From: Desulfurococcales archaeon
GTDB lineage: Archaea; Thermoproteota; Thermoprotei_A; Sulfolobales; NBVN01
Assembly (NCBI GenBank): GCA_027002995.1
Contig: JALWZB010000155.1
Span: forward strand, 155,682 to 208,841
DNA: 53,160 bases
Reading direction: 5' to 3'
Shown here in pieces: positions 2,525 through 2,891 of this stretch. The position numbers and the translations under genes were made by a program. The notes beneath the pieces are model-generated. The model saw nothing but the letters and a program-made list of their open reading frames with translations. It did no database searches and was not told the origin of the DNA. Within the stretch, counting starts at the first letter, position 1. Every line of letters begins with the position of its first letter.

Positions 2525-2640
2525 TGTCTACTCCACCTTTTCATGACAGATAAGGATTAAAAGCTCTCTGAGAACACATTTTCACGAGACTACGTGGATG
2601 ACCTCTGGTGGGCCCGTGGCTCAGCCAGGCAGAGCGGCGG

Positions 2641-2657
2641 ACCCCTTCGGGGCCGGA
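2641..2657 (+). other. tRNA-Trp intron 1 (17 nt, position 30/31)
   Basis: The intron folds as a 3-bp stem CCC/GGG with a 4-nt loop. It is flanked by a 3-nt bulge (GG|A), a 4-bp core helix of C2635-C2638 with G2652-G2655, and a second 3-nt bulge (GA|G). Outside that, GAG 2632-2634 pairs with CTC 2659-2661. This is a textbook bulge-helix-bulge for the archaeal splicing endonuclease at a non-canonical tRNA position. Confidence 0.82.
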
Positions 2658-2664
2658 GCTCCAG

Positions 2665-2723
2665 TCCAACACTACGGGTCTGCGGACCTGGTGAGGGATG
2701 ACATAAAGAATCCCCTGGGAGAG
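2665..2723 (+). other. tRNA-Trp intron 2 (59 nt, canonical position 37/38)
   Basis: The core helix is C2659-C2662 (CTCC) with G2718-G2721 (GGAG), with 3-nt bulges AG|T and AG|A. The intron interior contains a GGGAT/ATCCC hairpin (2695-2699 with 2710-2714). An intron at 37/38 is common in archaeal tRNA-Trp. I see no convincing guide-RNA boxes inside it. Confidence 0.85.
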
Positions 2724-2891
2724 ACCCGTAGGTCGGGGGTTCAAATCCCCCCGGGCCCACCACACCCCAAGCGGGGCGAAAGGGCTCCTAACCTTTTCTA
2801 CCACATCCCTAAGGTTTATCCTACGGGTGCCTAAGCTATAGGATAACTTACGTTAGAGCGATTACACTTAGCTGGCGCGGGAGGAGCTAAT

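Follow-up and report, generated by a model that had tools for sequence, protein, structure and literature searches.

How a pre-tRNA might shed two introns whose splicing motifs call on the same nucleotides is the question raised by the tRNA-Trp gene described here, which lies in a 53,160-nucleotide stretch of DNA from a Desulfurococcales archaeon (hereafter the window). The original prediction had placed the gene at its present coordinates and given it a 17-nt and a 59-nt intron, all of which proved correct when checked against the sequence, Infernal and homologs (Table 1). Infernal matched the gene with 46.5 bits and treated both introns as insertions. A boundary for intron 2 one base further upstream (2664-2722) was considered and dropped, as it puts a G-A mismatch into the central helix of the splicing motif.

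Table 1. Features of the tRNA-Trp gene, its splicing motifs and the predicted guide, with positions in the window
Feature	Position	Strand	Evidence
tRNA-Trp(CCA) gene	2610-2762	+	Two introns; CCA end encoded
5' exon, tRNA positions 1-30	2610-2640	+	cmscan RF00005; sequence
GAG (positions 22-24 of the D stem), forming the BHB1 outer helix with 2659-2661	2632-2634	+	3/3 pairs in all intron-bearing homologs
CGGC, 5' side of BHB1 central helix (with GCCG 2652-2655)	2635-2638	+	54/55 introns; compensated change in two relatives
Intron 1, 17 nt, at 30/31	2641-2657	+	BHB1 central helix complete in 54/55 homologous introns
Middle exon, positions 31-37 (anticodon CCA 2661-2663)	2658-2664	+	Sequence; invariant in homologs
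CTC (32-34), common to BHB1 outer and BHB2 central helix	2659-2661	+	Sequence
Intron 2, 59 nt, at 37/38, with predicted box D'/C' guide	2665-2723	+	Homolog comparison
Predicted guide CTACGGGTC, able to pair with 2723-2731 (tRNA 38-45 plus the final base of the intron)	2672-2680	+	Homologs; shuffles; compensated changes at 43
Candidate box D', CGGA (consensus NNGA)	2683-2686	+	NNGA at same spacing in 72/80 homologs
Candidate K-turn stem, CC 2687-2688 / GG 2695-2696, 6-nt loop between	2687-2696	+	CC/GG in 71/72
Candidate box C' core, GATGA	2697-2701	+	GATGA in 70/72
GGAG, 3' side of BHB2 central helix (with CTCC 2659-2662)	2718-2721	+	At least 3/4 pairs in 80/80
3' exon, positions 38-73 (2724-2759), and encoded CCA (2760-2762)	2724-2762	+	Sequence; Infernal

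In both motifs, BHB1 at 30/31 and BHB2 at 37/38, the central helix has all four pairs and sits between two 3-nt bulges (2639-2641 and 2656-2658 in BHB1, 2663-2665 and 2722-2724 in BHB2). BHB1 has flanking helices on both sides, the inner one pairing CCC 2642-2644 with GGG 2649-2651 and the outer one, GAG/CTC, being invariant exon sequence. BHB2, whose outer helix is the anticodon stem, has no continuous inner helix and offers at most one pair there (C2666-G2717), so that of two motifs claimed to be perfect only BHB1 deserves the description and BHB2 is relaxed. Of 55 distinct 30/31 introns, 54 have an intact BHB1 central helix as against 2.3% of shuffled introns, with a compensated change to CAGC/GCTG in two relatives, while that of BHB2 keeps at least three of its four pairs in 80 of 80 introns at 37/38 and in 19% of shuffles.

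The sequence bears out the earlier observation that CTC 2659-2661 serves both the outer helix of BHB1 and the core helix of BHB2, and that BHB1 also occupies D-stem bases; intron 1, for its part, interrupts the anticodon stem that is the outer helix of BHB2. Because both motifs need 2659-2661, BHB1 and BHB2 cannot, as read from the sequence, coexist on one molecule, and refolding between the cuts is therefore required if each cut needs a BHB. From the definition of the motif, a BHB at 30/31 takes positions 25-28 for its central helix and 22-24 with 32-34 for its outer helix, and one at 37/38 takes 32-35 for its central helix; by this geometry, introns at 30/31 and 37/38 must share 32-34 in any tRNA. 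Since the insertion sites alone impose the conflict, it is general rather than special to this gene, and we dropped the view that the shared CTC is a peculiarity of the locus.

Comparison with relatives, suggested earlier as a check, was run on 145 parsed tRNA-Trp loci representing 107 distinct sequences, and the two-intron arrangement proved widespread: 36 of these genes have both introns, 19 only that at 30/31, 47 only that at 37/38, and 5 neither. The genome of the window and Zestosphaera tikiterensis fall in one family (the tRNA-Trp gene of one relative, G005, is that of NBVN01000002.1), in which nine genera carry the two introns together and a single genus has only that at 37/38. Both introns also occur in four further families (f2, f8, f9 and f10), and the sampled genomes of another, f5, two of them named Acidilobaceae, have only the 30/31 intron; the search pattern gave no tRNA-Trp gene for relatives in family f11, which lies outside the counts. 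Because each intron occurs alone in relatives, neither depends on the other as judged from these sequences, and each must therefore be spliced without the other somewhere.

Intron 2 contains a further element that the original prediction missed, namely what appears to be a conserved box D'/C' guide with C39 as its predicted target. The putative guide can form nine pairs with the intron end and adjoining exon, a number reached in 49 of 5000 shuffles, and G2678, the fifth base upstream of the candidate box D', pairs with C39 (2725) in keeping with the N+5 rule. The pattern GGGTC-NN-NNGA-CC-loop-GG-(G/A)ATGA recurs in 72 of the 80 introns, always with the fifth base 5' of NNGA paired to C39, although a full RUGAUGA C' box is not conserved among the homologs. 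Across these 72 introns the pair at position 43 is T-A in 61, C-G in two and G-C in one, with eight unpaired. A fibrillarin gene is present in the genome, and an Rfam search of intron 2 gave nothing above the curated threshold other than the tRNA family. Formation of the guide-exon helix excludes the anticodon stem, and the precursor thus faces a second conflict.

In archaeal tRNA-Trp introns a box C/D guide is known to direct methylation of C34 and of U39 or C39 (PMC4090602, PMC7994747, PMC6313347), and the predicted guide in the window fits this type. It resembles the guide of Haloferax volcanii (H. volcanii) and Pyrococcus, described in the same papers, in lying in a 37/38 intron with a D' guide aimed at 39, but it differs in that the target is C39 rather than U39, in that the C34 guide and the external boxes C and D are unrecognisable, and in the presence of the extra intron at 30/31. 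In the window no C34 guide could be recognised, the pairings that include C34 reaching at most five pairs, and intron 2 has neither RUGAUGA before the guide nor NNGA at the expected place. In the window's genus the C34 guide is likewise degenerate, with a best match of five pairs, and so are the external boxes C and D.

Elsewhere a second segment with at least seven pairs including C34, often followed by NNGA, is found in 54 of the 80 introns. This segment almost always matches the unspliced 5' junction, that is, exon together with the first intron bases (as in L096 and L031), and the sequences suggest that in these 54 relatives methylation of C34 precedes the removal of intron 2. A stand-alone C/D RNA that might have replaced the C34 guide was sought by pattern in 31 genomes of the family and rejected: none was found in the window's genus, and matches elsewhere among the 31 were at control level. 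In the 99-100 nt intron 2 sequences of L042 and L043 the 3' exon sequence is repeated, as GGGAGACCCGTAG, upstream of the guide complementary to it; this copy may be either a decoy target or a duplication.

Such losses raise the question of whether the guide-exon helix is a mere leftover, intron 2 having ceased to guide methylation in this lineage. The degeneracy seen in the window's genus would fit this, as would the dispensability of the intron in H. volcanii (PMC4090602) and the 37/38 introns of a sister genus (L028, L029, L030, L032, L041 and L044), which have been cut down to 36-37 nt. These short introns nevertheless keep the D'/C' unit, and nothing else of the guide, as unusually short box C/D-type units, and even at 36 nt the guide, NNGA and GATGA persist with exact N+5 spacing to position 39. 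We therefore hold a leftover helix to be a doubtful explanation, albeit one to be kept in mind, and take an active Cm39 guide as our working reading in what follows.

With regard to the order of removal, we took all 36 genes with two introns and calculated the free energies of their precursors when forced into one motif or the other, the folding being used for relative costs only. With intron 1 present, BHB2 together with its anticodon-stem outer helix cost 20.7 kcal/mol (median ensemble value, 37 °C, n = 36), which fell to 8.4 kcal/mol after intron 1 was removed, the cost being lower in 36 of 36 genes. When intron 1 was instead relocated to the variable loop as a control, BHB2 cost just 9.1 kcal/mol, and the penalty is for this reason positional rather than a matter of added length. 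BHB1 in the presence of intron 2 cost 8.2 kcal/mol (median ensemble, 36 genes); by the minimum-energy measure its cost was 8.5 in that state and 6.3 when intron 2 was absent, and the ensemble ranking was unchanged at 75 °C. BHB1, which the presence of intron 2 hardly disturbs, is moreover confined to 2632-2661, so that it can fold ahead of the transcription of intron 2.

The energies thus favour removal of intron 1 first in all 36 two-intron relatives. Of the original proposal of ordered splicing or refolding, the mutual exclusion of the motifs stands as claimed, whereas the order itself is drawn from folding energies: we infer that 30/31 would be cut first, with refolding and then 37/38 to follow, because BHB2 becomes cheaper once intron 1 is lost and BHB1 is cheap, local and early to form. 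For the full precursor of the window, nearest-neighbour folding favoured neither complete BHB; the outer helix of BHB1 had a probability of 0.99, the guide-exon helix 1.0 and the anticodon stem 0.0, and the guide-exon helix remained dominant (0.99) without intron 1. The remodelling is presumably done by proteins.

The opposing view would be that there is no fixed order and that the endonuclease takes whichever motif forms transiently. Each intron does occur alone in relatives, and in the window the BHB2 core, at 11.8 kcal/mol with intron 1 present, lies just about 3 kcal/mol above BHB1 at 8.6. The genome encodes two splicing-endonuclease-type genes (PF01974, 93 and 40 bits), and since the heteromeric splicing endonucleases of Crenarchaea tolerate relaxed motifs (PMC4090602), cleavage of BHB2 while intron 1 remains is possible. 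However, with its outer helix BHB2 is some 12 kcal/mol dearer before intron 1 is removed, this cost falls in every one of the 36 genes, and BHB1 can form ahead of the transcription of BHB2, all of which makes removal in either order unlikely in our judgement.

That the gene has one real intron only, the other split being a misreading, can be set aside as wholly improbable: ARAGORN, run on the window, did not call the gene, but joining 2610-2640, 2658-2664 and 2724-2759 yields a complete, standard cloverleaf with anticodon CCA, and relatives lacking either intron have precisely the joined exons, as do intronless ones, so that removal of the introns restores the canonical tRNA.

The reading we prefer, and consider probable, is that two BHB introns are removed in turn, intron 1 first and intron 2 after refolding, with intron 2 guiding Cm39. 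The local BHB1 hairpin would form during transcription, a heteromeric splicing endonuclease would excise intron 1, and a ligase, assumed to be RtcB, would join 30 to 31. Once these are joined the D stem and anticodon stem would be free to form, and the relaxed BHB2 would be cut next; intron 2, before or after its excision, would direct 2'-O-methylation of C39 in the manner of a box C/D guide. A bolder version, which we put forward tentatively and think rather improbable, is that BHB1, BHB2 and the guide-exon helix, each limiting the others, make up a three-state RNA switch that enforces the order of intron 1 removal, C39 methylation and intron 2 removal, and that the guide has shrunk in this lineage to a lone D'/C' unit that functions with neither box C nor box D in introns of as little as 36 nt.

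Neither multiple BHB introns nor a box C/D RNA in a tRNA-Trp intron is new. Pre-tRNAs of archaea that contain several BHB introns (Sugahara et al. 2007, 2008; Tocchini-Valentini et al. 2009), as presented where they are cited (PMC3978253, PMC11408192), share with this gene a canonical 37/38 intron, a non-canonical one and a thermophilic crenarchaeal host, and to the extent of that description the gene is not different in kind; a literature search that relied on reviews found no paper on the 30/31 and 37/38 pair in tRNA-Trp. The eukaryotic alga Cyanidioschyzon merolae splices its multi-intron pre-tRNAs step by step and leaves the 37/38 intron until the end (Soma et al. 2013, in PMC3978253), much like the order we infer here, but on that account each algal motif could fold independently, whereas those in the window are mutually exclusive. 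The gene is an unexceptional tRNA-Trp gene of a crenarchaeon that bears two BHB introns. Their ordered removal is plausible, with comparative and energetic support, as something that these two intron sites would entail in any tRNA.

With 36 two-intron genes, 19 that have just the first intron and 47 that have just the second, the collection is a clean comparative set on the ordering of overlapping splice motifs. If removal is ordered, only one of the two possible intermediates should turn up for two-intron genes, and the single-intron genes provide natural controls. Second introns of ever smaller size likewise offer a way to test what minimum of a box C/D RNA suffices for guiding methylation.

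Introns are also found in tRNA-Lys genes of the same genome. That of tRNA-Lys(CUU) (L189, G000:C123:6666-6759) has an intron, ACCCAGCGAGGGTGGCCGA, likewise at 30/31, whose ends resemble those of Trp intron 1, and the 5' half of the tRNA is nearly identical; introns may possibly have been exchanged between tRNA genes. The tRNA-Lys(UUU) gene (L179, G000:C52:58881-58991) is interrupted by an intron close to 45/46, within the variable region.
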